The translations under genes and the position numbers were made by a program. Shown here piece by piece: positions 1,748 through 35,072 of a stretch of 42,427 bases of DNA. Source of the DNA: Spirochaetota bacterium (GTDB lineage: Bacteria; Spirochaetota; Spirochaetia; Treponematales; Treponemataceae). Under the pieces are notes generated by a model. The model had not been told where the DNA came from. It searched no databases and saw only the letters and a list, made by a program, of their open reading frames with translations. The stretch lies in the NCBI GenBank assembly GCA_016285185.1, contig JAEEQG010000161.1, forward strand, positions 1 to 42,427, given 5' to 3'. Numbering within the stretch: the first letter of the stretch is position 1; each line of letters starts with the position of its first letter.

Positions 1748-1755
1748 GGGGAGCG

Positions 1756-1821: not shown

Positions 1822-1831
1822 GGTATTAACG

Positions 1832-2100: not shown

Positions 2101-2121
2101 CCACTGTAAAAATAGACGAGC

Positions 2122-2236: not shown

Positions 2237-2278
2237 CTGCATGTATTTCGCATTATCTAAAAAAATTGAATTTCTCAT

Positions 2279-2310
2279 TAAATGAGATTCTTCTGTGCAA
2301 TTATAAAAGT
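2279..2310 (+). repeat. Direct repeat, copy 1 (upstream of DnaB-like gene)
   Basis: This 32-base segment begins TAAATGAGATTCT and ends ATTATAAAAGT; it matches 8392-8423 at 28 of 32 positions. It overlaps the inverted repeat TCTCATT-A-AATGAGA (2273-2287) and contains a TATAAA-like -10 (2302-2307), so it is probably the promoter or operator region of the gene at 2325. No good -35 at 17 bases was seen. Confidence 0.6.
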
Positions 2311-2324
2311 ACAAGGAGATAAAC

Positions 2325-3128: not shown

Positions 3129-3133
3129 ACCGT

Positions 3134-3148
3134 CCGCTCGTCTAGCGG
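3134..3148. other. Small hairpin after the DnaB-like gene
   Basis: CCGCT (3134-3138) and AGCGG (3144-3148) form a 5-bp stem around CGTCT, five bases after the stop codon. The core CGCTNGTCTAGCG recurs at 8437-8449, shortly after the second copy of the upstream direct repeat. No T-run follows, so it is not a clear terminator. Confidence 0.5.
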
Positions 3149-3258
3149 AACATCGTATGTGATACATTAACAATGAATGATTATTTTATGACTTTTATCA
3201 GTTTACAGATGAGTTCTTGAATGAGGGTATGGTAACTGTTTGTAATGCACATATTATA

Positions 3259-3292
3259 TTGACAAATACTATCTATCATATTATGATAGATA
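3259..3292 (+). promoter_or_regulatory. Methyltransferase promoter overlapped by a 23-base palindrome
   Basis: A consensus -35 TTGACA (3259-3264) and -10 TATGAT (3282-3287) are 17 bases apart. A perfect inverted repeat, TATCTATCATA (3270-3280), centre T (3281), TATGATAGATA (3282-3292), covers the spacer and the -10. A protein bound there would block RNA polymerase, so this is a strong operator candidate. The expected transcription start is only a few bases before the ATG at 3297, which has no Shine-Dalgarno sequence, so the transcript may be leaderless. Confidence 0.75.
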
Positions 3293-3296
3293 CATC

Positions 3297-5921: not shown

Positions 5922-6905
5922 ACCTAACTTTTTTTTGTTTGCATCTGATAATTTATCAACAAGGTCATATTCAATTATAATTTTTCTAATTTCAGATACA
6001 CGTTTATCAAGATTAGAGTTTTCTCTTACAGATAAATAATTATCAACGCCGGCATTTACATTATCAACTGTAATTTTCTGGTTAATAATAGGTTCTTTAC
6101 TTGATAGTAATTGTAAATCTGCTCCAGTTATATTTGCAAGTTCAATCAATTCATTATTGGTATAAAATTCAGAAGGCCATCGATCTCTTTTATTCAAATT
6201 AGCTTCGCTACTTAATAAGGCTGCATTTTCTTTTGTTAAAGGATATAGATACTTAGAGGGAAGAATATGATCTATTGCCCATGAATCTCTATCTTCAATA
6301 TCTAAATGCTTCTTTGTTTTAAAACATTTAGAATCAAATCGTTCAAATAGTTCTTTAATAAATAAATCATCTTTTATTAAGTTTTCTTTTTGAACAAATA
6401 AATCTGCAATTCTTCTTCGAATTGATGATTCACGTAATTGTTCTTTTGTCCGTTCGGGGTTAAGAGATGCATTTATAACACCTTTACAGGCTCTGCATTC
6501 CATTTGACGCTCTAATGGTCCAAAATTGCTATGCTTACTAAAAGCTGAAAAGGGTAATATTTTCCCACAACAGTTGCATTGTTTCCAATATGCTTCTTTA
6601 TTTTCTGTATAAATTCTAAAAAAAGCTTGCCAAAATCTCTGCACAGGTAACGAGCCCTTTTTTTTACTTTCTGTAGGCCAATTAGAATAAGAAAGAGAAT
6701 TATTTTTTGAATGTTCAAATCCACAATTATTACATACCCATTTTTGAGTTTCATATGCAACTTGTGGATCTAAAAGTTTTTGTCCAATATTTATTGTATT
6801 TAAGCTATTGCATTGAACACAGATAAAACCAACATACACATCATTAGGTTGTATACCTTCTATCCTGCTTATATTTGTTTGATTTTTTGTTTTTCTTCTA
6901 GGCAT
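5913..6905 (-). CDS. Zinc-finger HNH endonuclease, probable restriction enzyme
   Basis: This 330-residue protein has two pairs of CxxC half-sites: C29/C32 with C58/C61, and C109/C112 with C136/C139, so two zinc-binding modules are likely. Around residues 210-240, WAIDHILPSKYLYP followed by SSEANLNKRDRWPSEF gives the DH...N...N pattern of a beta-beta-alpha-metal (HNH) nuclease. Its 3' end overlaps the 3' end of the tandem methyltransferase by 9 bases, tail to tail, a common arrangement for type II restriction and modification genes. From this I infer it is the partner restriction enzyme. No clear Shine-Dalgarno precedes the ATG; TATAGT and TATAAC boxes lie 25-40 bases upstream. It could also be a homing-type HNH nuclease, but the partner gene makes restriction more likely. 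Confidence 0.75.
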   Translation of the reverse strand: MPRRKTKNQTNISRIEGIQPNDVYVGFICVQCNSLNTINIGQKLLDPQVAYETQKWVCNNCGFEHSKNNSLSYSNWPTESKKKGSLPVQRFWQAFFRIYTENKEAYWKQCNCCGKILPFSAFSKHSNFGPLERQMECRACKGVINASLNPERTKEQLRESSIRRRIADLFVQKENLIKDDLFIKELFERFDSKCFKTKKHLDIEDRDSWAIDHILPSKYLYPLTKENAALLSSEANLNKRDRWPSEFYTNNELIELANITGADLQLLSSKEPIINQKITVDNVNAGVDNYLSVRENSNLDKRVSEIRKIIIEYDLVDKLSDANKKKLGLI

Positions 6906-7142
6906 ATTCTTTTATCGGAAACAATTGTTATAGACTATAATAATAATACTTAGTGCCACAGTACAGGACTCTCATAACAAATTTCTTCGTATAAGTTTTA
7001 TTACAGTTAAAAAATGTCCGTATATTATTATGGATTATGCTTTCCCATTATTCTTCAACAGGTTTTCGTCTTTTCATAGCATTTTATGTCAATGCTGATA
7101 TGCCGAAACAAACACAGTATTGAATTATTTTAGCTATCATTA

Positions 7143-8836: not shown

Positions 8837-10054
8837 ATGATACACGAAAACATAAACAGTTTTGAGCTTGAGTATCTCAAAGAAGAAGCTGAAGAAGGAT
8901 ACAGATTATATGCCAAAAGATACAGGCGTGAACATGACAAAATGCCGTCAGAAAAAGAAAAAAACGCATTCATAAAGAAGTATATTAAAGAGCATACCAT
9001 TAAGACTGATTCCTCAATGCGGCAGATAGACAAAGAAAAAGGGCAGGTGGAATTACTTAAAAAAATAATTATCCGCGATAAAAAGAAGTTATCAATTCAA
9101 GAAATGTCGGAAATCCTGATTAACGAAGGATATACAAAAGGCTCCAGCGTAAAGACAATCTACAGGCGGATTCTGCCGGAGATTACAAAATTTGGAAATA
9201 TAAAAAAAGGAGCTGACGGCAGGTATTATTTTGATGAGAACAACAGCAGGCTGAGAAATTATAAAGAAATTACTGCAGACATTGCAGAAAAAGTTAGTCT
9301 CAGTATAACGAGTATAAACATAATCTCCAGCTTTTTAGAGACAATAAAAGATTCTCCTGTTTATGAGCAGGCAAAGAATTTTATTGAATCTGAAAAAGTG
9401 CAGTTTACACGTGGACGCAGAGAAAAAGTAAAAAATCAGAACAGCTCTTCAAGGCTTTTATTTCTTGGAGCGCCGGAATCAACAATTAGTACAAGAATTT
9501 GGGAAACAATCTATGATGCAATGGACAAAAATTCCGCAATCGACATTCATTATACTGCAGAAGGAAGGGTCAAAGAAGAAACATATACCGTATACCCGTA
9601 TCAGCTGATTTTTGATAATGGCAGCTGGGATTTATGGGGAGAATGTCTTACTGCGGGGCATAAAGGTAAAAGGCTTTTTAATCTGTCAAGAATTTCACAT
9701 GTTGCAACACGAGCAATGATAAAAACATTTGAGCTGCCGGACGATTATGACTTTTTAACAACCATGTCAGGCAGCTTTGGCTGTTACAATGACGGAAAAC
9801 AAAAGGTATATAAAATAAAGTTTCAAAAAGATTCGTATGCATGGACATATTCCAAAGATCGTATTTGGGGTGACAATCAGAAAATTGAAGAAGCGGAAGA
9901 CGGCTATATCCTTAGTTTTGAGGCTTCTCAATTTAAACCTGTATTGCGCTGGGTTTTAGGATGGGGGGACGAAGCAGAACCAGTGGAACCTGTTGAACTT
10001 GTAGACGAATGGAAGAAAAAAATTAAAAAAATAGCAAAAAAATTCAAAATTTAA
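8837..10054 (+). CDS. WYL-domain transcriptional regulator
   Basis: The 405-residue protein has a helical, charged N-terminal region (residues 1-60), a likely winged-helix part around LSIQEMSEILINEGYTKG (about 85-130), and a WYL domain at about 225-300. The WYL core is visible as TVYPYQLIFDNGSWDLWGE with the following KGKRLFNLSRISHV. The C-terminal part (QFKPVLRWVLGWGDEAEPVEP) fits the WCX extension. WYL proteins of this type sense nucleic acid or nucleotide ligands and very often control phage-defence operons. It is the first gene of a six-gene same-strand cluster and has its own promoter, so it probably regulates that cluster. Specific ligand and operator are unknown. Confidence 0.8.
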   Translation: MIHENINSFELEYLKEEAEEGYRLYAKRYRREHDKMPSEKEKNAFIKKYIKEHTIKTDSSMRQIDKEKGQVELLKKIIIRDKKKLSIQEMSEILINEGYTKGSSVKTIYRRILPEITKFGNIKKGADGRYYFDENNSRLRNYKEITADIAEKVSLSITSINIISSFLETIKDSPVYEQAKNFIESEKVQFTRGRREKVKNQNSSSRLLFLGAPESTISTRIWETIYDAMDKNSAIDIHYTAEGRVKEETYTVYPYQLIFDNGSWDLWGECLTAGHKGKRLFNLSRISHVATRAMIKTFELPDDYDFLTTMSGSFGCYNDGKQKVYKIKFQKDSYAWTYSKDRIWGDNQKIEEAEDGYILSFEASQFKPVLRWVLGWGDEAEPVEPVELVDEWKKKIKKIAKKFKI

Positions 10055-10071
10055 TCAAAAACCCTCTTTTT

Positions 10072-10086
10072 TCTCATTTTTTGAGA
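10072..10086. other. TCTCA/TGAGA inverted repeat between WYL and AAA+ genes
   Basis: TCTCA (10072-10076) and TGAGA (10082-10086) flank five T residues, 18 bases after the WYL stop and 43 before the AAA+ start. A similar TCTCATT-A-AATGAGA lies at 2273-2287. It could be a weak terminator or a protein-binding site. Confidence 0.35.
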
Positions 10087-10128
10087 ATGCATTGTTTTAT
10101 ATTTTCCTCGTTAACTAAGGAGGAAAAT

Positions 10129-12471
10129 ATGACAAACACTATCAGAAGAAAACGTGCAAGCGCATTACGCAGGGCTAAAAGGAATTCAGGCCCTGTAACA
10201 GCAGAAACAAAAGCAGAAGCTTATGCATTTTGTTTTTATCTTTATAACATTTTTTATGAAATACCAAATTACCGTGTTTTAAACCGTTATGATGATTTCC
10301 TTTTTGATTTTGTTGAGTATTGCAGGGAAACAGGTAAAGAGGAACGTCTTGATGCAGTTTTAAATAATGAAATTAAAAAGCTTGAGAAGGAAGGGCTTCT
10401 TGTTCCATTCAAGACGGACGTTCCTGATGAGATGATTTTTACGAATTCTAAAATCAAATATCGTTATGAAGAGGACAAAGAAGTAGACAGGAAGATTAAT
10501 AATGACAATCTTGTAACGGAAAACGTTGTAAATCTATACAGGATTCTGAATATAGAAAAAGAACCTGTTTTTTCTTCAATCATAAATACGGTTGTTTTTG
10601 ATGAAACAGATTTGCATGTTCTTCATAATGACATCAAGATGACAAAGAAAATAAGGAACACAGTTTATGATATTTCAAAAACCATGTTTCTTGTAGATCA
10701 GATAGGGCTTTCTAAGGAAGAAGCAAGATATATCCTTTTCGAAAACCGTATGAATACATTTCATAGATTCACGAGTATAATTGAGGATGAATTTCACGAA
10801 AAGAAAGAAAAAGAAAAATGCATCGCGAATATTGTTGGTATTTCACATAATGAATTCAGACAGATGCTCCGCCCTGACAATAAAATCAGAGCATTCGGTT
10901 TTATTGATGAAGACGGGGATTACGATTCATCATTAGATAATTGCATTATCGAAAAATCAATTTATCCGTATTTTGCAGATTTGATTAAACCTCTTGATTG
11001 CAGCGCCGCATACGGTCTGGATTCTTTTTCTGTAAAAAGAGAATCAATAGACATTACGGTTGATTTGCTCAAAGGTAAAAATCCTGTTTCCATTCTGTTT
11101 TACGGCAAGCCCGGTACGGGTAAAACAGAACTTGCAAAGGCAATCAGCAAACAAACGGGGAATAAAGTTTATATATTTAAGAATGAATCTGAAGTTGATC
11201 AAGATAAGAATCTTCTCGGTCGTCTTGTCTGTCTGCTTTCAATGGATTGGACGGATTCAGTTTTGATTGTTGATGAGGCTGATTCTTTGCTTAAAACGAT
11301 TGAAAGAAGTTTCTTTGGAACTTTTCCTGCACAGACAAAAGGCACTGTCAATAAGATGCTCGAGAACAACAGGAACAAGGTTATCTACATCATTAACCAC
11401 CAGAGACAGATTGATGAATCCACCCGCCGCCGGTTCACGTTCAGCATTAAGTTTGAATCAATGCCTGCTTCAACACTCCGCTCAATTGCGGAATCAAAGC
11501 TTGCGCCAATGGCAATTGAACAGGATGTTAAAAACAACCTGTTAGCTATGCTCGGCAAATATCACCTTACGGGAGCAAGCGTGGATAACCTTGTTAAGAC
11601 AATACAAGGCATGGAATGTTCCAATAACGATGAGCTTCTCAAAAAGGCGGAAATCGTGATGAAAGAAAATGCGCTTCTTTTGGACGGAAAATCAAAAATG
11701 AGGGAAACCGTAAAAGCCGAGTACAATCCAAAAGTTTTGAATGCATCAATGGATCCGCTCAAAATTGTTGAGATGATACAGAACGCCGCAAAATTTGCTG
11801 AAAAGAATAAAGACTCCGAGAACGGAATAAGAATGCTGTTTTACGGACTCAGCGGAACCGGCAAAACGGAGCTTGCCCGATACATTTCAGAACAACTCGG
11901 CAAGCCCATTATCCTTAAGCGCGCAAGCGATATTTTAAGTCCATATGTTGGGCGAGATGAACAGAATATCTGCGATGCTTTTGCCGAAGCAGAAACCTCT
12001 GATTCAATACTCTTGTTTGATGAAGCCGACACTTTCTTCTACAACCGGAATCAGGCGCAAAGAACTTGGGAACGCTCTCTTGTAAACGAATTTCTTACCC
12101 AGATGGAAGAGTTTTCCGGTATCCTGATCTGTACGACAAACCTGCGCAATGTAATGGATCCTGCTATGCAGCGCCGTTTTCACATGATGGTTGAGTTCAA
12201 GCCTATGAAGTTTGACGGTATCAAAATTATGGCGGAACGGTATTTTCCTGCTTATCATCTTTCCAACAGTCAGATTGAAAGCCTTGAAGATATGGAAAGT
12301 GTAACTCCTGGTGATTTTGGTGCGCTTTCAAGCCGCATCCGGTTTATGAATCCCGATGATGTTGATTCGGATTACATTCTTGAAGAGCTCAAAAAGCTTC
12401 AGGAAGAAAAGAAAAAACAGTGGAAAGCCGAAAGCGGCGAAAGTGAACACAAAATTGGATTTACAGCATAG
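10129..12471 (+). CDS. Double AAA+ ATPase
   Basis: The start is fixed by a consensus AAGGAGG six bases before ATG 10129, giving 780 residues. Residues 1-320 are a helical N-terminal region of unknown family. AAA+ domain 1 has Walker A GKPGTGKTE (about 325), Walker B VLIVDEADSLL and an arginine pair in STRRRF. AAA+ domain 2 has Walker A GLSGTGKTE (about 573), a pore-loop-like SPYVGRDEQNI, Walker B ILLFDEADTFF, sensor CTTNL and AMQRRF. Both Walker motifs are intact in both domains, so two active rings are possible. Family knowledge suggests a hexameric remodelling or unfolding motor. It is the largest gene in the WYL cluster, with the next gene 12 bases downstream. Its substrate is not evident. 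Confidence 0.85.
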   Translation: MTNTIRRKRASALRRAKRNSGPVTAETKAEAYAFCFYLYNIFYEIPNYRVLNRYDDFLFDFVEYCRETGKEERLDAVLNNEIKKLEKEGLLVPFKTDVPDEMIFTNSKIKYRYEEDKEVDRKINNDNLVTENVVNLYRILNIEKEPVFSSIINTVVFDETDLHVLHNDIKMTKKIRNTVYDISKTMFLVDQIGLSKEEARYILFENRMNTFHRFTSIIEDEFHEKKEKEKCIANIVGISHNEFRQMLRPDNKIRAFGFIDEDGDYDSSLDNCIIEKSIYPYFADLIKPLDCSAAYGLDSFSVKRESIDITVDLLKGKNPVSILFYGKPGTGKTELAKAISKQTGNKVYIFKNESEVDQDKNLLGRLVCLLSMDWTDSVLIVDEADSLLKTIERSFFGTFPAQTKGTVNKMLENNRNKVIYIINHQRQIDESTRRRFTFSIKFESMPASTLRSIAESKLAPMAIEQDVKNNLLAMLGKYHLTGASVDNLVKTIQGMECSNNDELLKKAEIVMKENALLLDGKSKMRETVKAEYNPKVLNASMDPLKIVEMIQNAAKFAEKNKDSENGIRMLFYGLSGTGKTELARYISEQLGKPIILKRASDILSPYVGRDEQNICDAFAEAETSDSILLFDEADTFFYNRNQAQRTWERSLVNEFLTQMEEFSGILICTTNLRNVMDPAMQRRFHMMVEFKPMKFDGIKIMAERYFPAYHLSNSQIESLEDMESVTPGDFGALSSRIRFMNPDDVDSDYILEELKKLQEEKKKQWKAESGESEHKIGFTA

Positions 12472-12483
12472 GAGGAGGATTTT

Positions 12484-13338
12484 ATGAGTCTTATGGCATT
12501 GGGTGTAAAAATCAACGCACTTCAAAAAGGTATAAAGGAAGGACGGTTCACAACAAAAGCACAGGTTAAAGAAGCTGCAAAAGAACTCCGTGTTGCATCC
12601 GCAATTGGATATGGAAACCTTTCTCCCGAAGATAATGAACGCTGGTATGAGCAGCTTGCCGTGAATCTTTTTGAAAACCACAACAACTGGATTCCCTGCT
12701 TTATTGATATTGGCTTTGGCAGGGAACTGATTGATCATTCGGCAAATGTACAGAATAACACAATTCCTAAAAAGCAGCAGTGGAAGATTATCGTAACAAG
12801 AGACAAATTCCCGGAATGGCAGTTCTGTGCAATTGTAGCAACTTTTTGCAGGGAAGAAGCTGTTCTGTATCTGAAAAAATACTTCTCTGATTATGGTGAT
12901 TTGGGCTTTAACTATCACGAACCTTCTGAAATAAAACAAAGAGTGCCGTGGGTAGAAGTATCGACTAAGAAAACCGGTTCATACAAGGAACAAAAGGTTA
13001 AATATGACTTGGCTGTTCCATGTTCACCTAAGAGTGCAGGGGGAAAATATCCTATGTGGATAACAATTCCGTATTTGCAGAAAGAGCATCCGCCTGCTCA
13101 TGCTCATCTGTATACGGCGGATTTAAAATTCATAACCAAATTTGAAATAACGGAGAATCCTCCGGTAGATATGTCGGATTTAAAGGTTCTGCCTAATTGT
13201 AAAAAGCTTCCGCAGAGATATTGTGAGCTACTTATTGAGTGGGCAAAAGATACTCAAAATGGTGTTAGCAATTGGGAAAAACTAAAATCCAACTGGCAGG
13301 ATTTTATGGATGCCGCTCAATCCGGCTTGTTTGAATGA
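12484..13338 (+). CDS. Unknown protein with DUF4160-like C-terminal region
   Basis: This 284-residue protein starts 12 bases after the AAA+ gene with GGAGGAGG before the ATG, so the two are co-expressed. Residues 1-60 are a basic helical segment containing FTTKAQVKEAAKELRVASAI. The middle (WKIIVTRDKFPEWQFCAIVA) is an unrecognised alpha/beta region. From about residue 190, ITIPYLQKEHPPAHAHLY resembles the EHxPPHxHV start of DUF4160, a small fold often seen in toxin-antitoxin and conflict contexts. It ends in a helix with WEKLKSNWQDF. The tight coupling suggests a partner or adaptor of the AAA+ protein. The DUF4160 resemblance is by eye only. Confidence 0.6.
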   Translation: MSLMALGVKINALQKGIKEGRFTTKAQVKEAAKELRVASAIGYGNLSPEDNERWYEQLAVNLFENHNNWIPCFIDIGFGRELIDHSANVQNNTIPKKQQWKIIVTRDKFPEWQFCAIVATFCREEAVLYLKKYFSDYGDLGFNYHEPSEIKQRVPWVEVSTKKTGSYKEQKVKYDLAVPCSPKSAGGKYPMWITIPYLQKEHPPAHAHLYTADLKFITKFEITENPPVDMSDLKVLPNCKKLPQRYCELLIEWAKDTQNGVSNWEKLKSNWQDFMDAAQSGLFE

Positions 13339-13422
13339 GTTATTTGGAAAATCAGGTGATTGCTTTTGCGACACCTTAAATATCAGCTGTATTTAGAAAA
13401 CTTTGATAAAAGGAGAAATGCA

Positions 13423-13611
13423 ATGCCACACGCAAAAAACTTACCGTGTCAGTTATGTCCGAGCTGCGCAAACTATGAGTATCATGCTCATACCAGTGCG
13501 CCTCATCGTTGCAAAGATTCCGGCAGTTTTACCAACAGCAGTAAATGCGGTCAGGATCCGAACAAAGATGGTACATCTTCAAACAACTGCAAGAAGTATG
13601 AACCGGCTTAA
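13423..13611 (+). CDS. 62-residue cysteine-rich protein
   Basis: The ATG at 13423 has AGGAG (13411-13415) upstream; the longer in-frame ORF would start inside the spacer after the previous gene. The product is small and has six cysteines: CQLCPSC near the start, then single cysteines in HRCKD, SKCGQ and NNCKKY. Histidines (HAHTSAPHRC) add further ligands. This looks like a small metal-binding or redox peptide. It keeps the strand and spacing of the cluster (84 bases after the previous gene, 70 before the next) and has no hydrophobic signal. I do not recognise the family. Confidence 0.65.
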   Translation: MPHAKNLPCQLCPSCANYEYHAHTSAPHRCKDSGSFTNSSKCGQDPNKDGTSSNNCKKYEPA

Positions 13612-13632
13612 TAAGTTCAACTGATTAAAACT

Positions 13633-13659
13633 CGGCAGAAAACCGGCCACCTTCTGCCG
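13633..13659 (+). terminator. Hairpin inside the WYL cluster, possible attenuator
   Basis: CGGCAGAA (13633-13640) and TTCTGCCG (13652-13659) form a perfect 8-bp stem with an 11-base loop. Only TTTCAG follows, so termination would be partial. It separates the first four genes from the last two and could set their expression ratio. Confidence 0.5.
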
Positions 13660-13681
13660 TTTCAGTTAGGGAGAAATAATC

Positions 13682-14620
13682 ATGGGAAAAAAATACGAAA
13701 TAACACTAAAAGATATCAATAAGGAAATTGAATTATTACTCACTAAGCTTAATCTTTTGATAGAGGCTTGTACCAATTCTGGCAATAATATAGAAGATTT
13801 ATATTCAGAATTAACAGAACAAATAAAACAATATAAAAAACACATTTCTGAATATCAACTTCAGGATCTTCCTTTTGTTGAAGAAATGGATAATGGCAAT
13901 CCAATTTCATTTGCGGGTAAAGAAAATGCTGAAGCAGAAGAAAATTCAAAATTAGTAAAACTCTGTGCCGAAAGGGCAATTGATGCTATTTATGCAATTA
14001 GAAATTGCGATGCCTGTACTGAAAAAGAAGCAAAAAGAGAAGAGTTATATTGGCTTCTTCACCGATTAAGATTTCCACTCCAATTCAAGATATATGCATT
14101 ATCAACTCTCGATTCTTATTTACCATATTCACTGGGGTTCCGTCTTAATAGAGAAATTAAAAATTGGCAGTTAAAAAATGCATATAGAAGTTTGATAAAG
14201 GAAAACAACTGGAAATACCTCGGACATGCAGAGACTTTTAAAGAAGCCTATCATTATGCAGAAAATAATGGATTCTCTTGGGGCGGAGTTATTCACCTTT
14301 GCGCAGAACCAGAAGATGAATACACAAATAGTTTTGTAAAAATCGAAACTCCTTTCTTTACCGAATATTTTGATTCCTATGCAAAAGGTCCGATAGGGCA
14401 TAGATTCAATTATCGAAAAACAGAAATAACTTGCCTTTTCTGTAAAAAGGTATTCACATATCAAGGACATTCATGCGATCCAATTGTCAACAGAAGCAAT
14501 GATATTTATTTTCAGTATGCACGGTGCTGTAAGAAATGCTATAGAAAATATGTAAAACCGGCAAAGAAAGATGAGAACCTTGCTCAGAAAATCCGTACAG
14601 ATTTCAAGCTGGATATTTAG
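13682..14620 (+). CDS. Unknown protein with C-terminal zinc-ribbon cysteines
   Basis: The 312-residue product begins with a coiled-coil-like helical region (residues 1-60, KEIELLLTKLNLLIEACTN). A helical middle follows, with CDACTEKEAKREELYWLLHR at about 113-132. The C-terminal part has ITCLFCKKVF (about 257) and CCKKCYRKYVKP (about 290), which together would give a four-cysteine zinc ribbon. A Shine-Dalgarno AGGGAGAAA lies before the ATG. It follows the 70-base spacer containing the hairpin and is separated from the next gene by only 16 bases. No catalytic motif is visible. A DNA- or RNA-binding role is possible from the zinc ribbon alone, but this is speculative. Confidence 0.6.
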   Translation: MGKKYEITLKDINKEIELLLTKLNLLIEACTNSGNNIEDLYSELTEQIKQYKKHISEYQLQDLPFVEEMDNGNPISFAGKENAEAEENSKLVKLCAERAIDAIYAIRNCDACTEKEAKREELYWLLHRLRFPLQFKIYALSTLDSYLPYSLGFRLNREIKNWQLKNAYRSLIKENNWKYLGHAETFKEAYHYAENNGFSWGGVIHLCAEPEDEYTNSFVKIETPFFTEYFDSYAKGPIGHRFNYRKTEITCLFCKKVFTYQGHSCDPIVNRSNDIYFQYARCCKKCYRKYVKPAKKDENLAQKIRTDFKLDI

Positions 14621-14636
14621 TTATAGGAGACTCTGT

Positions 14637-15584
14637 ATGAAAGATTTAAACATTCCATTAGAAAAACTGATTGCATCCAAAGACATTATTGCGCAATTCA
14701 AAAAAGAGAAACGTGTCTTTACACCATTTGAGCAGGCTGTTTTGATTTATCAGAATCCGAAACTTACGCATGAAGAAATGCTGAATCTCCTGAAGCAGAT
14801 TCAAGACGCTGTAAAAGATGAAGAAGAATACAAGGAACTGTATCAGCAACTTGAAGAACGTATCAAATTCCAGGTTGAACTTGAAAAAAGGTTCTATTCT
14901 GGCGAAGAAAACCAGTATTTCAATTTTTCATATAAAGATGCGGAGAATATGGAAATTGTGAACGACGACAGTTTCTTTTCTGATTTGCACAAGCTTTTAG
15001 ACTACATTGATGATTATTTCAAAAGATATGGAATTAAAGCGGTTCAATCTGCCGTCAATGGCAAATTCACTGTACATAAACATTATCTTAACAGCAATGA
15101 TATTGAAATTACTGCTGTTTTTGATGGTCAGAATAAAATAAAAAAAATCTATTCTTACAGTTTAGATACCCTGATTGATTATACTAAGCCTGATAACTTT
15201 GCAAATGCATTTGTGGAAATACCTTTCCCGTTCAGAAACGGTGATTTTGTTCATGTTATAGGTAATCCGCAAATTGGTATTTTTACCAGCTGCAAAGATG
15301 AAGAAGATTATCGGTATTTACAATTGCTTCATAAAAGAATTACGGAAAAGGGGCTTAATATTGATGCTTCTGATATCAGTTGCAGGGTTGAACTGCTTGC
15401 CCAAGCTGATAATTCCGAACGGTTGTACTTTTATCATTACCATCCAAGCTTGCTTTCTTTGGAATATGCAGAATTGAAAGAATCGGACGAACATTATGAA
15501 CTGCTTAAAAGTGCGCAAGCCCTCATGCAGGGCAAAGGTTCTCTGGAAACCTTTTGTGGTTATTTGAATGTAGGAAATAAGTAA
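14637..15584 (+). CDS. Unknown 315-residue protein, last gene of the WYL cluster
   Basis: I chose ATG 14637 because ATAGGAGA lies just upstream; a longer ORF would overlap the previous gene. The N-terminal third is helical and strongly charged (residues 1-85, FTPFEQAVLIYQNPKLTHEE then LLKQIQDAVKDEEEYKEL), consistent with a coiled coil. The rest appears alpha/beta, with IEITAVFDGQNKIKKIYSYS and FVEIPFPFRNGDFVHVIGN. No signal peptide, membrane segment or cysteine cluster is seen. The family is not recognised. Its stop is followed by degenerate 33-base repeats and a long inverted repeat that mark the end of the accessory block. Confidence 0.6.
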   Translation: MKDLNIPLEKLIASKDIIAQFKKEKRVFTPFEQAVLIYQNPKLTHEEMLNLLKQIQDAVKDEEEYKELYQQLEERIKFQVELEKRFYSGEENQYFNFSYKDAENMEIVNDDSFFSDLHKLLDYIDDYFKRYGIKAVQSAVNGKFTVHKHYLNSNDIEITAVFDGQNKIKKIYSYSLDTLIDYTKPDNFANAFVEIPFPFRNGDFVHVIGNPQIGIFTSCKDEEDYRYLQLLHKRITEKGLNIDASDISCRVELLAQADNSERLYFYHYHPSLLSLEYAELKESDEHYELLKSAQALMQGKGSLETFCGYLNVGNK

Positions 15585-15648
15585 AGGAGTATGATTTGAT
15601 GTGTATCAGGCGTATAAGAAAATGAAAAACAGCTTTATAGGGTTGTAT

Positions 15649-15704
15649 TACACTTTTTATTCGCACTTTTTAGGCTTACACCACACTTTTTATTCGCACT
15701 TTTT
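15649..15704. repeat. Two 33-base repeats with CACTTTTTATTCGCACTTTTT
   Basis: CACTTTTTATTCGCACTTTT occurs from 15651 and again from 15684, a 33-base period. A third diverged copy (GCACTTTTTATTTGCGCTTT) lies at 8470-8489, at the other end of the WYL cluster. There it forms the end of the gene relic. Confidence 0.65.
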
Positions 15705-15716
15705 TATTTGTCAGTT

Positions 15717-15758
15717 TTTTATGTAATTTGTATACTCGACTACCCAAATTACATAAAA
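15717..15758. terminator. 14-bp perfect inverted repeat between the accessory block and polA
   Basis: TTTTATGTAATTTG (15717-15730) pairs perfectly with CAAATTACATAAAA (15745-15758) around a 14-base loop. The arms are AT-rich with short T and A runs at the outside, so it may terminate from both sides. It lies 56 bases before polA. Confidence 0.5.
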
Positions 15759-15814
15759 ATGTTCCTCATACCAAAAATTGGGTTTTTGTGTTATGATAAT
15801 AAAAAAGAGGTTTT

Positions 15815-18586
15815 ATGAAAGATTCTGACAAAACACTGTACGTGCTTGATTCGTACGGGTTGATTTACCGTGCTTACTATGCTTTTATCAGCCGTCCGCT
15901 GGTCAATATAAAAGGCGAGAACGTTTCCGCCGTTTTCGGGTTTTTCCGCAATTTTCTAAAGATACTAAAAGACTATAAACCCGCTTATGCCGTTGCGGCT
16001 TTGGACTCCCGAACACCCACGTTCCGGCACAAACTGTTTGACGAATACAAGGCAACCCGCCAAAAAACACCGGAAGACCTTCATGCGCAGATTCCCGTTA
16101 TAGAAGAAATACTTACCGCTCTTGGAATTCCTATTCTCCGGTGCGACGGCTACGAGGCGGATGACATAATCGCGACTCTTGCCCGTGAGTGTGAGCAGAA
16201 CGGAATGCGGTGCTGCATTCTTTCCGGTGACAAAGACTTGATGCAGCTTGTTAACGGCAGTATTTCAATATTAAAGCCCAACCATTCAGGCGGCTGGACA
16301 GCCGTTGACGAAAAAGGCGTTATGGAAGAGTGGGGCGTGCAGCCGTCGCAGATGCAGGACATGCTCTCGCTTTTGGGCGACACCGCGGACAATATTCCCG
16401 GCGTAAAGGGAATCGGCGAAAAAACGGCGCAAAAGCTTCTTACCGAATACGGAACGCTTGCAAATATTTATGAGAATGTGGAATCAATTGCGGGTTCTGT
16501 AGGCAAAAAGCTTGTAGAAGGCAAAGAATCCGCATTTTTTTCAAAAAAACTTGTGGAACTGTGCACGGATGTTCCCGTCTCGCTGGAACTTTCCAATTAT
16601 TCAGTGGCTTCACTCGATTTTGCTTCCGCGGCGCGCCATCTTTTTAATGCTGGCGTTCCTGTAGTTGCCAAATCCTATGCCGAATTCGGGGCTGTTGCCG
16701 AAGTTCAGGCAGGTGCGGCAAGCGTTGCCGCCGAAGAAGACGGGGAACCTGTTTTTGACTCGCTTGTTCAGAATACCGGTGATTATCGCGCTGTAACAGA
16801 CATAAACGAACTTGAAACAATTATTGACCAGGCGCTTGCCGCAGGTTTTGCGGCTTTTGACTGCGAAAGCAACAGCCTTAACCCGCATGAAGCACGCCTT
16901 GCAGGCTTTTCAATTTCAATGCAGAAAGGCAAAGCCGTTTACATTCCGCTTGTTACGGCGGAAAGCGGAACTCTCGGTTCCGTTTCGTACATCAGTGCGG
17001 AAGCCGCTCTCGGCGAGCTTGCAAGAATGTTCGGGCGTGCTGAGATGACCGTAATCACACACAACGGCAAGTATGATTACGAGGTACTGCGCGCAAACGG
17101 TCTTAAAGAACTGAAATGCCGCTTTGTTGATACGATGGTGGCGGCATGGCTGTTGAATCCTGAGCGTGCGTCGTTCTCACTTGAGGCCTTGAGCGAAACT
17201 CAGCTCGGGCTCAAGACAATTCCTTTTACGGATTTGGTTCCCAAAAAAGAAAAGGAAATGACGTTCTTTGACGTTCCGCTTGAAAAAGCTGTTCCCTATG
17301 CCGCCGAGGACGCGGATTTGACGTTGCAGTTGTGGCAGCTTTTTGAGCCCAAGTTAAAGGAAAAAGGACTTCTGCCGCTTTTTGAACAGACTGAAATGCC
17401 TGTAATGCCGGTTCTTGCGGAAATGGAAATTGCCGGAATCCGCCTTGATACACAGAACCTTGCCGCGTACGGAAAAGAACTTGCCGCTCAGATTGAGGAT
17501 GCCGAAAAGAGTATATTCAGTCTTGTAGGACATGAGTTTAACATTGCTTCAACAAAGCAGCTTCAGGATGTGCTTTTTGAAGAACGAAAGCTTAGTCCCG
17601 TAAAAAAGACAAAAACCGGCTTTTCAACTGATACCGCCGTTTTGGAAGAACTTGCCCGTGTTGATGAAGTTCCCAAAAGAATACTTGATTACCGTACGCT
17701 CACAAAGCTACAGTCCACCTATGTGGAAGCAATCCCAAAGCTTGTTTCGTCCGACGGCCGCGTGCGCACAAGCTTTATTCAGACCGGAACGGCAACGGGC
17801 CGCCTCTCGAGCCGGGATCCCAACCTGCAGAACATTCCTGTGCGTGAAGAAGCCGGACGCAAAATCCGTTCCGCGTTTACGGCGTGTGAAGGCTGCAATC
17901 TTGTTTCCGCGGACTATTCGCAGATTGAGCTTGTCATACTGGCACATCTTTCCGGCGACGAAAACCTTAAAAAAGCCTTTTTGAGCGGAGTAGACGTTCA
18001 CAAGGCTACCGCCTGCCTCATATTCGGGGTGGACGCAGAAGCCGTAACACCCGATATGCGCAGAACCGCAAAAACAATCAACTTTGGTGTTATGTACGGA
18101 ATGAGCGCGTTCCGGCTTGCCAACGAGCTCGGAATTTCCAACACACAGGCTAAATCATTCATAGATTCGTACTTTGCAACATACTCCGGGGTACAGTCCT
18201 TTATTCATAGTACTGTGGAACATGCGGAAGAAAAAGGTTTTGTTGAAACAATATTCGGTCGCCGCCGGTACATTCAGAATATCAATTCAAAAAACAAGAT
18301 AGAAAAATCCGCGGCGGAGCGGGTTGCCGTAAACACACCTATACAGGGTTCGGCGGCGGATATTGTCAAAAAGGCTATGATTGCCGTTGATGGTGCTTTA
18401 AAAAAAGAAAACCTGCATGGGCGAATGCTTCTGCAGGTTCATGACGAGCTTATTCTGGAATGTCCCGAAACTGAAACCGAAAAAGTCTCAGCACTCGTAA
18501 AAAGAGAAATGGAACAGGTTGTTGCCCTGTCCGTTCCTCTCAAAGTCAGTGTTGAAAGCGGTAAAAACTGGGGACTGTTCCACTAA
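15815..18586 (+). CDS. polA: DNA polymerase I
   Basis: The 923-residue enzyme, normal length for the family, fills gaps and removes RNA primers in replication and repair. Three domains are visible. The 5' nuclease (about 1-290) has LYVLDSYGLIYRAYYAF and YEADDIIATLA. The 3'-5' exonuclease (about 325-520) has all key acidic motifs: FDCESNSL, HNGKYDYEVL and YAAEDADLTL, so proofreading is probably active. The polymerase domain has motif A SADYSQIELVILAHLSGD, motif B RRTAKTINFGVMYG and motif C QVHDELILE. The ATG follows AAGAGG. It converges on gltX, with stop codons overlapping by 4 bases. Confidence 0.98.
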   Translation: MKDSDKTLYVLDSYGLIYRAYYAFISRPLVNIKGENVSAVFGFFRNFLKILKDYKPAYAVAALDSRTPTFRHKLFDEYKATRQKTPEDLHAQIPVIEEILTALGIPILRCDGYEADDIIATLARECEQNGMRCCILSGDKDLMQLVNGSISILKPNHSGGWTAVDEKGVMEEWGVQPSQMQDMLSLLGDTADNIPGVKGIGEKTAQKLLTEYGTLANIYENVESIAGSVGKKLVEGKESAFFSKKLVELCTDVPVSLELSNYSVASLDFASAARHLFNAGVPVVAKSYAEFGAVAEVQAGAASVAAEEDGEPVFDSLVQNTGDYRAVTDINELETIIDQALAAGFAAFDCESNSLNPHEARLAGFSISMQKGKAVYIPLVTAESGTLGSVSYISAEAALGELARMFGRAEMTVITHNGKYDYEVLRANGLKELKCRFVDTMVAAWLLNPERASFSLEALSETQLGLKTIPFTDLVPKKEKEMTFFDVPLEKAVPYAAEDADLTLQLWQLFEPKLKEKGLLPLFEQTEMPVMPVLAEMEIAGIRLDTQNLAAYGKELAAQIEDAEKSIFSLVGHEFNIASTKQLQDVLFEERKLSPVKKTKTGFSTDTAVLEELARVDEVPKRILDYRTLTKLQSTYVEAIPKLVSSDGRVRTSFIQTGTATGRLSSRDPNLQNIPVREEAGRKIRSAFTACEGCNLVSADYSQIELVILAHLSGDENLKKAFLSGVDVHKATACLIFGVDAEAVTPDMRRTAKTINFGVMYGMSAFRLANELGISNTQAKSFIDSYFATYSGVQSFIHSTVEHAEEKGFVETIFGRRRYIQNINSKNKIEKSAAERVAVNTPIQGSAADIVKKAMIAVDGALKKENLHGRMLLQVHDELILECPETETEKVSALVKREMEQVVALSVPLKVSVESGKNWGLFH

Positions 18587-21902: not shown

Positions 21903-21975
21903 TGGGATGTCGTCAAGTGGTAAGACAACGGCTTTTGGTGCCGTCATTCCGCAGGTTCGAATCCTGCCATCCCAG
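21903..21975 (+). tRNA. tRNA-Gln (anticodon UUG)
   Basis: A complete cloverleaf can be drawn: acceptor TGGGATG with CATCCCA, D stem GTC/GAC, anticodon stem ACGGC/GCCGT with loop TTTTGGT giving anticodon TTG, T arm GCAGG-TTCGAAT-CCTGC, discriminator G. The 3' CCA is not encoded. The first pair is U1-A72, the feature by which bacterial GatCAB selects tRNA-Gln for transamidation. The 3' strand of the acceptor also pairs with ACTGGGA just downstream, which may act in 3' processing or termination. Confidence 0.96.
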
Positions 21976-30709: not shown

Positions 30710-31012
30710 ATGATTGAATTAAACAGCAAACAAAGAAAGATTCTCGAAAAAGCGGCGCACAACCTGCAGCCCGTTGTAATTGTGGGCGGTGCAGGTGTTA
30801 CTGATGGTCTTATAAAAATGGTTGATACATCCGTTAAGGCACACGAGCTTATAAAAATAAAATTCAATGAATACAAAGACGAAAAGGTTGATCTTACACA
30901 AAAAATCTGTGCTGCCTGCGATGCATCGCTTGTCCGCATCATCGGCAATGTGGCGATTGTATACCGTCCTGCCGACGATCCCGAAGACCGCGTAATAAAA
31001 AATTTAGAATAA
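30710..31012 (+). CDS. yhbY: YhbY-type RNA-binding protein (CRM domain)
   Basis: The 100-residue product is one CRM domain. It shows the expected LNSKQRKILEKAAHNLQPVV start, the glycine loop VGGAGVTDGLIKMVD, the basic strand HELIKIKF and the ending IGNVAIVYRPA. Family members bind pre-50S particles and help ribosome assembly. The gene is the last of the lepA-HD-yhbY run, with GGGA a few bases before the ATG. A hairpin lies shortly after its stop. Confidence 0.93.
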   Translation: MIELNSKQRKILEKAAHNLQPVVIVGGAGVTDGLIKMVDTSVKAHELIKIKFNEYKDEKVDLTQKICAACDASLVRIIGNVAIVYRPADDPEDRVIKNLE

Positions 31013-31030
31013 AAATTCGATTTTGTGAAA

Positions 31031-31055
31031 AAACTCACTAAAAACATGTGAGTTT
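31031..31055 (+). terminator. Possible terminator after yhbY
   Basis: AAACTCAC (31031-31038) and GTGAGTTT (31048-31055) form a perfect 8-bp stem. The nearest T-run (eight T) begins about 13 bases later, so termination may be weak. Confidence 0.45.
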
Positions 31056-31121
31056 ACCCACACACTATTTTTTTTAAATGTGGTAAATTAAGCTGTCTCA
31101 AAAAAAATGTGAGGTAACAAA

Positions 31122-31519
31122 ATGAGCATTGCAGAATTTGTTGAACAGGAATTAGCCGGAAAAGGTACCGGACTGCTGAATTTTACTCAGCGGCTGCCGG
31201 TTTCCGATTATCTGGACGGTAAAAAAACATATAACCTTGAAGTTAGTACTGATGAAGATTCTGAACAGAGTTACGGCTGGTCTCTGACAAATCCGTACTC
31301 AACCGACTTTTGCGCAGTGCACGAAAAACCGCGTCCATGAACAGCCCAAAAGTTACGCTTGAACCGGCGCCGGACACCAAATCATGTACTGTTACGGTCG
31401 ATCCTGACAATCTTTTTAAGACTGCAGGTTCTATAACAGTTTTTGTTTGGGCCGCGGATAATCCTTCTGAAGCAGCAGCACAAATCTGCGTTTCAGAAAT
31501 GTATGTATTCAAAAAATAG
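31122..31519 (+). pseudogene. Frameshifted gene for a small unrecognised protein
   Basis: A good ribosome site (GTGAGGTAAC) precedes ATG 31122, which opens a 72-codon frame starting MSIAEFVEQELAGKGTGLLN and ending at a TGA at 31338. A second frame covering 31310-31519 continues with MNSPKVTLEPAPDTKSCTVT then SITVFVWAADNPSEAAAQIC and ends MYVFKK. The join at about 31320-31340 reads as a single protein of about 130 residues broken by a one-base-type frameshift. The C-terminal half looks like a beta-sandwich. Two separate small genes are possible but less likely, as the second has no ribosome site. Family unknown. Confidence 0.45.
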
Positions 31520-31542
31520 TATATATAAAAAAGAGTAATAAT

Positions 31543-31659
31543 ATGAAAAATGAGTTGGATGAGAAAAAAAGTTCAGTAAGCAGACTGCTGAGAATCAGCA
31601 TAATCATTCTGGCAGGCGTAGTCCGGGGTCGCTTGAAAGTAGGCTTGGAAAATATGTAA
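31543..31659 (+). pseudogene. N-terminal stub of a membrane protein (38 codons)
   Basis: The frame begins MKNELDEKKSSVSRLLRI and then enters a hydrophobic stretch (SIIILAGVV), like the start of a membrane-anchored protein. From codon 28 on it reads into an inverted repeat (GGGGTCGCT, 31625) and stops at 31659. I infer that the rest of the gene was replaced by the repeat-rich DNA that follows. The ribosome site is weak (AAGAG). Confidence 0.4.
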
Positions 31660-31707
31660 CAGACTTTAGCGACCCCTTCGAGAATTGGGGTTTCACCCCA
31701 ATTCTCG
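31625..31707. repeat. Two adjacent inverted repeats
   Basis: GGGGTCGCT (31625-31633) and AGCGACCCC (31668-31676) are perfect arms 34 bases apart, with AAAGT/ACTTT extending them. Three bases on, CGAGAATTGGGGT (31679-31691) and ACCCCAATTCTCG (31695-31707) form a perfect 13-bp hairpin with a 3-base loop. They start inside the stub ORF and end just before the next array. They resemble ends of a small non-autonomous element or a strong transcription barrier. Confidence 0.7.
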
Positions 31708-31715
31708 CGAAACCA

Positions 31716-31803
31716 TTTTCATCCCGATGAAAAATTATTTTCATAAGGATGAAAAAAAAATTTCATCAAGAAGAAAATAAATTTTCGTCAAGATGAAAAT
31801 TTG
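31716..31803. repeat. Four exact 22-base units with TTTTCATC...GATGAAAA palindrome
   Basis: Units start at 31716, 31738, 31760 and 31782. Each has a palindrome of the type TTTTCATC-NN-GATGAAAA plus a 4-base linker; the third unit is the most degenerate. The period is exactly 22 bases across all four units. Confidence 0.9.
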
Positions 31804-31845
31804 ATAAAGAATGATATGCGCCTGAAAGTGGGAGTAATCAGCTTA

Positions 31846-31977
31846 TTTACCGAGGGTAAATCGACTGTTTACCTATGGTAAATCTATTATTTACCCATGG
31901 TAAATAGACTATTTACCTATGGTAAATCGACGATGCGCAGAAGGTAAATAAGCTATTTACCATTGGTAAAGCCGTTT
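31846..31977. repeat. Six exact 22-base units with TTTACC...GGTAAA palindrome
   Basis: Units start at 31846, 31868, 31890, 31912, 31934 and 31956. Five show TTTACC-NNN-GGTAAA followed by a 7-base linker such as TAGACTA or TCGACTG; the fifth keeps only the right arm. The period is 22 bases without exception. The sequence is unrelated to the TTTTCATC array 42 bases upstream or the arrays at 1756-2007. Confidence 0.92.
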
Positions 31978-32009
31978 TGCGGCAACCGTTCCGTTTATTT
32001 TGCGACAGG

Positions 32010-32243
32010 CTAGAGCTTTGCGGCAAGCTGTTCTATCGTTTCCAGCGGAAGTCCTGTACATGCTGATATTTCTTCAAATGTAAGCTTATTCATAGACAGC
32101 ATATTCCGTGCCGCTTCAAGCTTGGCTTCTGTTTTTGCTTCTTCCATTATGTCATAATCATGAAGATTGCATCTCATATACTCGCTCCTGAACTTTTCGT
32201 CCTTCATGACCTTACCAAACATATAGTCATCGGTAAAAGTCAA
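32010..32243 (-). pseudogene. Internally deleted Rpn/PD-(D/E)XK transposase-type gene
   Basis: The 77-codon frame joins two parts. The first 20 or so residues (MTFTDDYMFGKVMKDE) are the typical start of Rpn-like recombination-promoting nucleases, and the last 45 (EAKTEAKLEAARNMLSMNKL, then FEEISACTGLPLETIEQLAA) are their usual C-terminal tail. The 200 or more residues expected between, including the nuclease core, are gone, and the reading frame is kept. The product would have no nuclease activity. It lies between the 22-base arrays and secA. These genes are abundant in treponemes, so it is a good lineage hint. Confidence 0.7.
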
Positions 32244-32265
32244 CTTTTCAAATGTGTGCGATGTC

Positions 32266-32294
32266 TTGCCAGTAGCAAAAATAAATAGTAAATT
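32266..32294 (+). promoter_or_regulatory. Candidate promoter of secA
   Basis: -35 TTGCCA (32266-32271), 17 bases, -10 TAAATT (32289-32294). The predicted transcription start falls on or next to the secA ATG at 32301, and no Shine-Dalgarno is present, so a leaderless mRNA is possible. Confidence 0.4.
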
Positions 32295-32300
32295 AAAAAC

Positions 32301-35072
32301 ATGAGTATCGCAGATAAAATTATGACCGTCATTTTTGGTTCAAAACATGAACGGGACATAAAGGAACTTATTCCAATCGTTAAAAAAGTCAATGAAAAAG
32401 AATCCTGGGCGGCTTCTCTTACCGAAGACCAGTTCCATGAACAGACTGAAAAATTCAAAAAACAGATTGCGGAGGGAACTTCGCTTGATGATATACTGCC
32501 CGAAGCTTTTGCCCTTGCGAGGGAAGCTTCTAAACGCATGCTCGGTGAGCGACCGTACGACACACAGATTATGGGTTCAATCGTTCTGCATTCCGGCAGA
32601 CTTGCCGAATTAAAGACCGGTGAAGGTAAAACCCTTATGACTGTTGCGCCCGCCTATTTGAACGCGTTAACGGGTAAAGGCGTTCACGTTGTTACCGTAA
32701 ACGATTACCTTACCGAACGAAACGCCGACTGGATGCGCCCCGTTTATTCGTACCTCGGTGTTACCGTCGGCGCAATACTTGCGAACATGGACAACGAGCA
32801 GCGCAAACAGGCTTATAACTGCGACATTACTTACGGAACAAACAATGAGTTTGGGTTTGACTATCTGCGCGACAATATGAAATTTCCGCCCGAACAAAAA
32901 GTTCAGCGCGGTTTTGCTTATGCCATTGTGGACGAAATAGACTCAATCCTCATAGATGAAGCGCGAACACCGCTTATTATTTCAGGTCAGGGCGAAGACG
33001 ACACCTACAAATTCCACGAGGTGGACAAATACGTTAACCAGCTTTCGGAAGTTAAAAAGAACCCCGAAACCGACGAGTACCCGGACGAAGTTCAGGGAGA
33101 AGTTGTTGAAGGCGACTACAAGCTTAACGAAAAGAACAAGGGTGTTGCATTTACCGATCAGGGTATGCTGCACATTGAAGAAATCCTTAAAAAGCATAAC
33201 ATTATTACAAGCGGCAGTCTTTTTGACGAAGAAAACTTTGAATACATCCACTATTTTACACAAGCTGTGCGCGCACACAAGCTGTACAAGCCCGATGTAG
33301 ATTATGTTGTTAAAGACGGCGAAGTTCAGATTGTAGACGAGTTTACCGGACGTATTCTTGAAGGACGCCGTTACGGTGACGGTCTGCATCAGGCTATAGA
33401 AGCCAAAGAACACATAAAGATTGCCCAGCGCAACCGTACTCTGGCAACAATCACATTCCAGAACTTTTTCCGTATGTACCAAAAGCTTTCCGGTATGACC
33501 GGTACAGCTGACACGGAAGCCGTTGAGTTCAACAAGATTTATAACCTTGACGTTGTTGTTGTTCCAACCAATAAGCCTGTTGCCCGTGTTGACGAAAACG
33601 ACGAGGTTTATCTGACCGAAGGCGACAAGTGGCAGGCAATCTGCAACGAAATTATCCGTATCCACAAAACCGGACAGCCGGTTCTTGTCGGTACAATCTC
33701 AATTGAAAAATCCGAGCTGCTTTCTTCAATGCTCACCAAATGCGGCGTTCGCCATGAGGTTCTTAACGCAAAGAACCACGCACGCGAAGCTCTCATTATT
33801 GCGGAAGCCGGTGCAAAAAACGCCGTTACTATTGCAACAAACATGGCAGGACGCGGTACCGATATCAAGCTCGGCGGCAACCCCGAATTCCGTGCGCGCA
33901 AGCGTGCCGGCACTGAAGCAACGCCGGAACAGTATGAGGCTGCTCTTAAGATTGAAAAAGAACAGTGGCAGAAAGACTATGAGGAAGTAAAAGCACTCGG
34001 CGGTCTTTGTGTACTTGGTACAGAACGCCATGAGAGCCGCCGTATTGATAACCAGCTGCGTGGTCGTTCAGGCCGTCAGGGTGACCCGGGTCGCAGTAAA
34101 TTCTATCTCTCGCTTGACGATGACCTTATGAGGCTGTTCGGCGGCGAAAAGATGAAGATGATGATGAGCCGCATCGGTATGCAGAGCGGCGAGCCTATTT
34201 ATCATCCGTGGCTCAGCAAGACAATAGAAAAGGCACAGACAAAGGTTGAGGAACGCAACTTTGAAATAAGAAAGCACCTGCTCGATTATGACGATGTTCT
34301 GAACGAACAGCGCACATTCATTTACGGACAGCGTGACGATATTATAGCCGACAATGAGCTGCCTAAGCGCGTTATGCAGACGGCGAGTGATACAATAGAA
34401 GATTTTATTGACGAGTATAAGCACGATGCGCGCAAAAATTCGGACGAAGCTGTTTCCGCCCTGTTCAATCAGGTTAAGGAAACATTCGGTCTTACGCTGA
34501 ATCTCGACAAATCCGCTTATCTCGGTACCAAGAACAGCGAAAATCTGCAGGCCGACATTCTTGAAGAAATGCGCAAGGATTTGCAGGAAAAAGAACTGCT
34601 TGCCGGTAAAGAGAACCTTAATATGTTTATTCGTTCACTTTACATTCAGGCGATTGACCGCAAATGGCTTGACCACCTTGAAACGCTTGAAGCTCTGCGC
34701 GAAGCTGTTTATCTGCGTTCATACGGTTCCAAAAATCCTCTTACCGAATACAAAATTGACGGTTTTAACATTTTTTACGATATGCTTGATTCAATCAGGC
34801 TTGATATTGCACGCAAGGTTTTCCGCGTAAAGATTCAGGTTGGTCCTGCAAATTACGAGCGTTCGCGCCGAGCTGTGCGCAATGTGAACGAGCAGCATCA
34901 GGATGCGGGCATGTTTGCGGGTGGTATGCAGGCAGCAGGTGGACGTTCTGTTGTATCGGCTCAGAGCCGTCCCGAAAGTGCCACATACGTACGTGCAACG
35001 CCTAAGGTTGGACGCAACGAACCGTGTCCGTGCGGAAGCGGTAAAAAGTACAAGAACTGCTGCGGAAGATAG
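32301..35072 (+). CDS. secA: Preprotein translocase ATPase SecA
   Basis: SecA drives preproteins through SecYEG by ATP hydrolysis. The 923-residue protein has Walker A in [10 protein letters not shown], Walker B-type [16 protein letters not shown], the helicase motif [14 protein letters not shown] and [20 protein letters not shown]. The C-terminus has the zinc-binding, SecB-contacting tail [16 protein letters not shown]. Start [19 protein letters not shown] agrees with the family. No Shine-Dalgarno lies within 20 bases upstream, which is odd for so central a gene. plsC follows after 34 bases, probably in the same transcript. Confidence 0.98.

Follow-up and report, generated by a model that had tools for sequence, protein, structure and literature searches.

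What kind of element occupies the spacer upstream of secA in this spirochaete contig, where two rows of different palindromes follow each other and keep the same 22-base step? The window, by which we mean the whole stretch of DNA analysed, is a contig of 42,427 nucleotides (C29) from a draft genome of 2.77 Mb in 173 contigs (G000), which is 99.89% complete with a contamination estimate of 8.15%. The SecA protein marks the source as a treponeme: searches with it returned spirochaete loci, the named relatives being largely gut or digester Treponema; the nearest match is a partial record from Treponema sp. UBA1240, 98% identical over residues 396-923. The arrays are real, more widespread than the window shows, and not hairpin-driven. 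The explanation we prefer, with a confidence that falls slightly short of even, is that they are BOX-like modular interspersed non-coding repeats of a gut Treponema lineage, made of two-turn recognition sites for a putative binding protein.

The order of features in the spacer is a yhbY-like gene, a small gene, a 38-codon remnant, the F2 array, the F1 array, a broken Rpn-type gene and secA (Table 1), so that the arrays are flanked by two decayed genes. The first-pass annotation had called the Rpn-type gene internally deleted. This is confirmed by the nearest relative compared, G007 (largely 80-96% identical by stretch), in which a longer gene shares both termini with the remnant and carries the ~200 internal codons that are absent here. 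The C-terminal part of the remnant matches positions 235-273 of TIGR01784 with an E value of 3.7e-5, below the curated cut-off. The arrays had also been placed ahead of both the Rpn-type gene and secA. This is correct for secA, which starts downstream on the plus strand, but the Rpn-type remnant is on the minus strand, and the arrays therefore lie beyond its 3' end and not in front of it. Over the whole window, nothing except one tRNA (21903-21975) exceeded an Rfam gathering score.

Table 1. Features of the window spacer and of related loci (window positions unless a locus or contig is named)
Feature	Position	Strand	Remarks
yhbY-like gene	30710-31012		name by eye
38-codon 5' gene remnant	31543-31659	+	by eye; gene runs on in G007 (L182); truncated just 5' of the arrays
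F2 array	31716-31799	.	four 22-base units, TTTTCATC-NN-GATGAAAA type; TRF and step count
F1 left-end module	31819-31845	+	GCCTGAAAGTGGGAGTAATCAGCTTA; resembles L002 and L005 left ends, by eye
F1 left closing arm	31839-31851	+	CAGCTTATTTACC; predicted pairing with 31943-31954; similar ends at L002, L005, L006
F1 array	31846-31970	.	six units at a 22-base step around GGTAAAT; TGCGCA(G) replaces TTTACC in unit 5
F1 right closing arm	31943-31954	+	GGTAAATAAGCT
Rpn-type gene, internal deletion	32010-32243	-	77 aa; G007 version 277 aa
secA	32301-35072	+	ORF list
Second window cluster	1733-2240	.	F5 1756-1810 (step 22), F3 1832-1995 (22), F32 2017-2092 (32), F6 2120-2234 (23)
cas1-cas2 repeat loci	L101 (G000:C159) 184-7125; L034 (G000:C70) 1899-4491; L166 (G142:C71) 1-2847; L167 (G111:C24) 9253-17222; L168 (G167:C59) 10251-11544
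HU-DUF4469 genes	L026 4170-4988; L104 357-1172; L111 6493-8571; L108 6358-8393; L103 4678-5388
Array-adjacent HU-DUF4469 operons	C25; C3; C47; C4		F4 at C25; F4+F32 at C3; F3+F32 at C47, leading to XRE, ImmA-like (by eye) and HU genes; F6 at C4, likewise

Both arrays are detected by TRF and are strictly phased. The four F2 units start at 31716, 31738, 31760 and 31782, giving three steps of 22, and the GGTAA cores of F1 repeat at step 22 five times, giving six units. The original description of two exact 22-base arrays of four and six units, free of insertions, therefore stands, and shuffles produced nothing comparable. Some of its details needed amendment. The fifth F1 unit carries TGCGCA where TTTACC was described; the outermost arms of the two arrays are separated by 46 bases (31800-31845) rather than 42; and the first F1 loop reads GAG rather than CGA.

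A search of the own genome with the window arrays returned 12 places, overlapping matches counted. F1 is present at five own-genome loci besides the window (L002, L004, L005, L006 and L018), with a stub at C156. Each of the six loci has 5-7 cores, and the left and right ends are related at most of them, the left end of L018 being degenerate; the counterpart of the window's left-end module is CCTGAAGGTAGGAGTAATCAG at L002 and lies in reverse complement at L005 (by eye). Among the 34 units, GGTAAAT is near-invariant and most remaining columns vary, the variable half reading TTTACC, TGCGCA, TACGCA, TTCGCA, CGCGCA, CGAACT, CGAACC, TGAACC or TAAACC. The GGTAA anchor used for alignment pre-fixed five of the seven right-arm columns; despite this anchor, no rung was lost inside any array, since all 28 within-ladder steps equal 22. 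These are not 28 independent observations, because the units share ancestry. The F2 family recurs at L003 in the own genome and at L009 and L013 in G007. In an alignment of 19 F2 units from four loci, two of these in G007, the step is 22 in 14 of 15 cases and 21 in the other, and the symmetric core is conserved.

The step itself extends well beyond these two families. In the intergenic DNA of the window and 20 own-genome stretches, self-similarity of at least 25/33 was found at lag 22 in 11 places, while shuffles averaged 0.00 per lag. At the same cut, lag 23 was found eight times, lag 44 seven times, lag 46 five times and lags 32, 33 and 45 once each, with none at the remaining lags from 14 to 55; a relaxed cut of 22/33 adds lag 28, three times. 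Unselected stretches of the own genome, window excluded (213.5, 166.2 and 364.0 kb non-N, ~744 kb), contained six non-coding arrays, every one at lag 22, 23, 32 or 44: C25 (23), C45 (32), two at C60 (22), and C13 and C16 (both 44, with an inner step of 22 by eye). The C16 array sits within a 116-codon stop-free stretch. Excluded from this count were a coding repeat at lag 18 and another at lag 54, three all-N stretches and a lag-33 row that appears at the looser cut only (L024 14337-14414). The small contigs C10, C100 and C140 (L023, L037 and L039) are N throughout. The 364-kb set, mostly large-contig stretches, had no arrays, so array density is uneven.

Approximately nine further families with a 22-23-base step can be recognized in the own genome besides F1. 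With anchors of our own choosing, F3 (GAAACGAATCGTTTC type) has a step of 22 in 22 of 28 cases and 23 in four, F4 (AGCTTAGTTTAATATATCGAAC type) 23 in 15 of 17, F5 (AATCCAAGC...GTTAACA type) 22 in 8 of 12, and F6 (TCCCCTCGCACATCTGC type) 23 in 14 of 15. More rows of step 22-23 were seen by eye at L101 (5940-6080), L126, L182 and L186. Four families form the second window cluster, between gatC-like and DnaB-like genes (names by eye). Besides the window copy, this F5-F3-F32-F6 composite occurs at C60, and pieces of it are present at C47, C66, C159, C139, C4 and C163; the search with the cluster returned 14 own-genome places, overlapping matches counted. The window also has an array-like 33-base repeat of CACTTTTTATTCG type at 15625-15715, a three-turn pitch. 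Descriptions of interspersed repeats in bacteria usually deal with a single family. In this genome ~ten unrelated families keep to an almost uniform pitch, which suggests that the pitch is itself what is selected or produced.

If selection is at work, what does it act on? It had been proposed that the arms change more slowly than loops and linkers and are under selection, with compensatory arm changes as the prediction. Slow arms are found on both sides in F2, where mean entropy over the 19 units is 0.29 and 0.31 in the arms, 1.74 in the loop and 1.04 in the linker. In F1 only the right arm, GGTAAAT, behaves in this way: over the 34 units from six loci its entropy is 0.05, against 0.98 in the left arm, 1.41 in the loop and 1.28 in the linker. 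The predicted compensation failed to appear in either family: 129 of 152 F2 pair cells are Watson-Crick and none of the other 23 is compensated, and for F1, summed from the pair table, the figures are 163 of 238 and 0 of 75.

These counts bear directly on the possibility that the arrays are transcribed as hairpin chains, with the palindromes serving as RNA structure in a BIME-, terminator- or stabiliser-like manner. The window arrays do fold far better than dinucleotide shuffles (z -7.6 for F2 and -6.1 for F1); for the five F1 arrays elsewhere, read in the GGTAAAT orientation, z lies between -2.7 and -6.9. C/T variation at two arm positions of F3 would, by eye, retain G-U pairs. However, when the interior units of the six F1 arrays were permuted, redrawn from the family or column-resampled (both strands, 36 comparisons), the native energies were not extreme, the lowest rank being 7/200 (L004, minus strand, column null). 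Strong folding is thus a by-product of the units, and we rejected the whole-array hairpin as a selected feature. In addition, folding is weak in F6 (z -2.0) and absent on the opposite strand of L006 (z -0.3), and positions 31000-32400 are devoid of terminator-like sites. We consider hairpin chains unlikely. With zero compensation and folding as a by-product, selection on hairpins is unsupported, and the alignments support the view that the constraint, where present, would act on a recognised sequence.

Comparison with relatives gives some insight into how the arrays change. The F5 array at C163 and its orthologue at G007:C48 differ by exactly one 22-base unit, and the flanking proteins are 97-100% identical. 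At C161, the convergent spacer that carries an F1 element measures ~300 bases, versus ~35 in G007:C126, where both flanking genes persist. The spacer edges have diverged in G007, so a clean insertion boundary cannot be drawn; copies at unrelated loci are known, and no target duplication is visible at this spacer with its diverged edges. The G007 stretch orthologous to C59 can be aligned only from just 3' of the F1 array onward. As for the window spacer, the yhbY-like gene of G007 has a different gene (partly masked) after it within ~100 bases, with no tandem repeat; the small gene that precedes the arrays is on a different contig, before an intact longer gene; and secA lacks its start. The window spacer therefore has no intact counterpart there, and one genome or both must have been rearranged where the arrays stand.

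The arrays may instead be selfish or neutral tandem satellites of no use to the cell, spread by slippage, unequal exchange and a putative mobiliser and owing their pitch to amplification. This is a substantial possibility, though one we doubt. The whole-unit difference between the F5 orthologues fits it, as do the greater identity at 44 than at 22 bases in F1 and F3 (TRF), a three-unit block duplication seen by eye in the F4 array at L089, the location of arrays in spots of gene decay such as the window spacer, and the finding that sampled stretches of G002, G004 and G006 contain no array of step 22-23. Yet the F1 unit is half fixed and half variable, which homogenisation alone does not yield, and several unrelated families share one pitch. 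By eye, the flanking genes have no clearly preferred orientation, which fits passive insertion and function equally.

When F1 and F2 were used as queries against 40 relatives, the own genome included, five gave matches; F2 arrays are clear in G007, whereas another three genomes have short AT-rich matches only. G007 shows self-similarity at lag 22 (four times) and lag 44 (twice), with single cases at 15, 51 and 54. The arrays in G002 stretches are at lag 40-41; for example, step-41 tandem repeats occupy contig ends at L052 (1-130) and L054 (1-132), and in L052 a 21-base palindrome alternates with ~20 variable bases. The secA neighbourhoods of 80 relatives gave mainly AT-rich rows with scattered lags and array-like rows at L212 (7556-7632, step 22) and L241 (1-90, step 23); these are near secA in two other ruminant-gut treponemes and are unrelated to F1 and F2. 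Pattern scans of IMG/VR for F1, F6 and F3 gave no matches, nor did a scan of a genome collection for F1, from which near records were possibly excluded. Phage records and 72,556 plasmid records likewise held no match to the arrays. Judged by titles and abstract openings, no paper returned by the literature searches, which did not extend to bioRxiv, deals with such arrays.

Pho boxes and LytTR sites are tandem regulator sites with a similar step, and each array could theoretically be an operator for a dedicated regulator of the neighbouring gene or operon (for the window, secA or rpn). The positions of F4, F6 and F3/F32 arrays, upstream of HU-DUF4469 or XRE-ImmA-like-HU operons, would be compatible with this. 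On the other hand, F1 and F2 copies are mostly found at 3' ends or between convergent genes, the window copy is 330 bases away from secA and past the 3' end of a gene that is itself broken, and the C161 spacer is short in G007 with both flanking genes retained. We regard operators as very unlikely.

To judge from their sequences, the arrays resemble dispersed series of docking sites for a protein more than RNA hairpins. In the BOX-like explanation that we prefer, each element is a head-to-tail row of 22-23-base units around a family-specific core that would serve for recognition. Such rows change length by whole units and occupy many unrelated intergenic sites, alone or as composites, and the families adjoin differing genes. 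The core might be bound by a putative DNA-binding protein, and the two-turn pitch would set successive proteins on the same face of the DNA. The F1 plan, in which the ends are conserved and the inner units vary in number, resembles the A-(B)n-C arrangement of pneumococcal BOX.

A lead to such a protein is the HU-DUF4469 family. Five of its genes were found in the own-genome DNA examined, four of them in operons that start within ~300 bases downstream of an array; four of the five lie on stretches chosen for their arrays and the C25 gene comes from the unselected set, so the link is partly ascertained. The C107 gene is 3.1 kb from the F1 array there. Pfam identifies DUF4469 in the C3 and C25 proteins (E values of 1.6e-19 and 1.3e-20), where HU falls short of its gathering score, and an HTH in both XRE genes. 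The link concerns F3, F4, F6 and F32; none of these genes is near the window arrays, and the association therefore remains a lead only. A bolder version would have one pitch-sensing nucleoprotein machine, with HU-DUF4469 as the candidate, that reads or builds the rows and so makes unrelated families converge on the 22-23-base step, the rows moving as modules, including inside Cas1-Cas2-associated repeat arrays; this we think improbable. If one protein were behind all families, it would represent a novel means of organising or marking bacterial chromosomes, and if no protein is found, the arrays would point to an unusual amplification process.

How do these elements compare with known systems? 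The BOX elements of Streptococcus pneumoniae consist of boxA and boxC around a variable row of tandem boxB units, and are intergenic and over-represented between convergent genes (PMC3049150). F1 resembles BOX in plan: it is a composite, and at most of its six loci conserved outer modules enclose inner units in variable copy number. It differs in its 22-base inner unit, boxB being ~45 bases long, in its asymmetric fixed core, in its occurrence in Treponema and in the presence of many unrelated families at nearly one pitch in one genome. REP/BIME and REPIN sequences are short palindromes outside genes that occur in many copies, in part as clusters (PMC3733652, PMC3116915). The same can be said of the Treponema arrays, but their rows are strictly phased and not doublets. 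By eye, a constant GTAG/CGTC tag is absent from the 34 F1 and 19 F2 units, CGTC occurring only in some F1 linkers. Mobilisation by a RAYT is unlikely, as G000, at its 99.89% completeness, has no match to the Y1 transposase profile PF01797, which as a control finds matches in 5 of 14 genomes.

Plasmid iterons are direct-repeat sites of 17-22 bases at a two-turn pitch, close to the array units in size and spacing. However, no rep gene was seen beside the window arrays, the arrays occupy many chromosomal loci in several families, and the plasmid records gave no match. CRISPRs share with the arrays the alternation of regular repeats and variable parts; in F1, by contrast, a 9-base core alternates with a 13-base variable part whose variants are re-used across loci, and the window ORFs close to the arrays showed no cas gene.

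A separate set of repeats does adjoin cas genes in G000. Contig C159 encodes cas1 and cas2 (Pfam and NCBIfam; the Cas1 is type II-like), and 12 bases past cas2 begins a series of nine 36-base direct repeats, eight identical and one with a single change, with 195-875 bases between them; a tenth, longer variant lies 1876 bases further. On C70, four related repeats follow a cas1 remnant at distances of 850, 598 and 409. In G142 and G111, whose Cas1 is ~48% identical, repeats of 36-37 bases are found just past cas2 and then at 222-970 and 461-2831 bases, respectively, and G167 has one such repeat at a contig end. Since the arrangement recurs at four loci in three genomes, it is unlikely to be an assembly artefact. 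The repeat-bounded segments of 0.2-2.8 kb carry HTH/Gp49, PIN, Barstar and PBECR1 family genes among others, together with a weak YokU match below cut-off, and several hold toxin-, antitoxin- or immunity-type genes. From their sequence organization, these loci look like Cas1-Cas2-associated gene-cassette arrays. No description of such arrays was found in titles and abstract openings, in a search whose scope left bioRxiv outside, and Cas1 relatives in IMG/VR gave seven candidate stretches, none confirmed.

One C159 segment is an F1 element and another is an F5/F3 piece. We had considered the co-extent of the C159 segment and the C161 copy as proof of a mobile cassette; we gave this up, since the capture of any segment from a locus of this kind would give the same picture. 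An integron cassette carrying the C159 copy was also rejected: the 36-base repeats are located after cas1-cas2 and do not show the attC end motifs. Elsewhere in G000, C153 (1942-2708) contains an integron-integrase-like sequence (TIGR02249) in two pieces and different frames; the match falls short of the curated cut-off, and the gene is probably broken.
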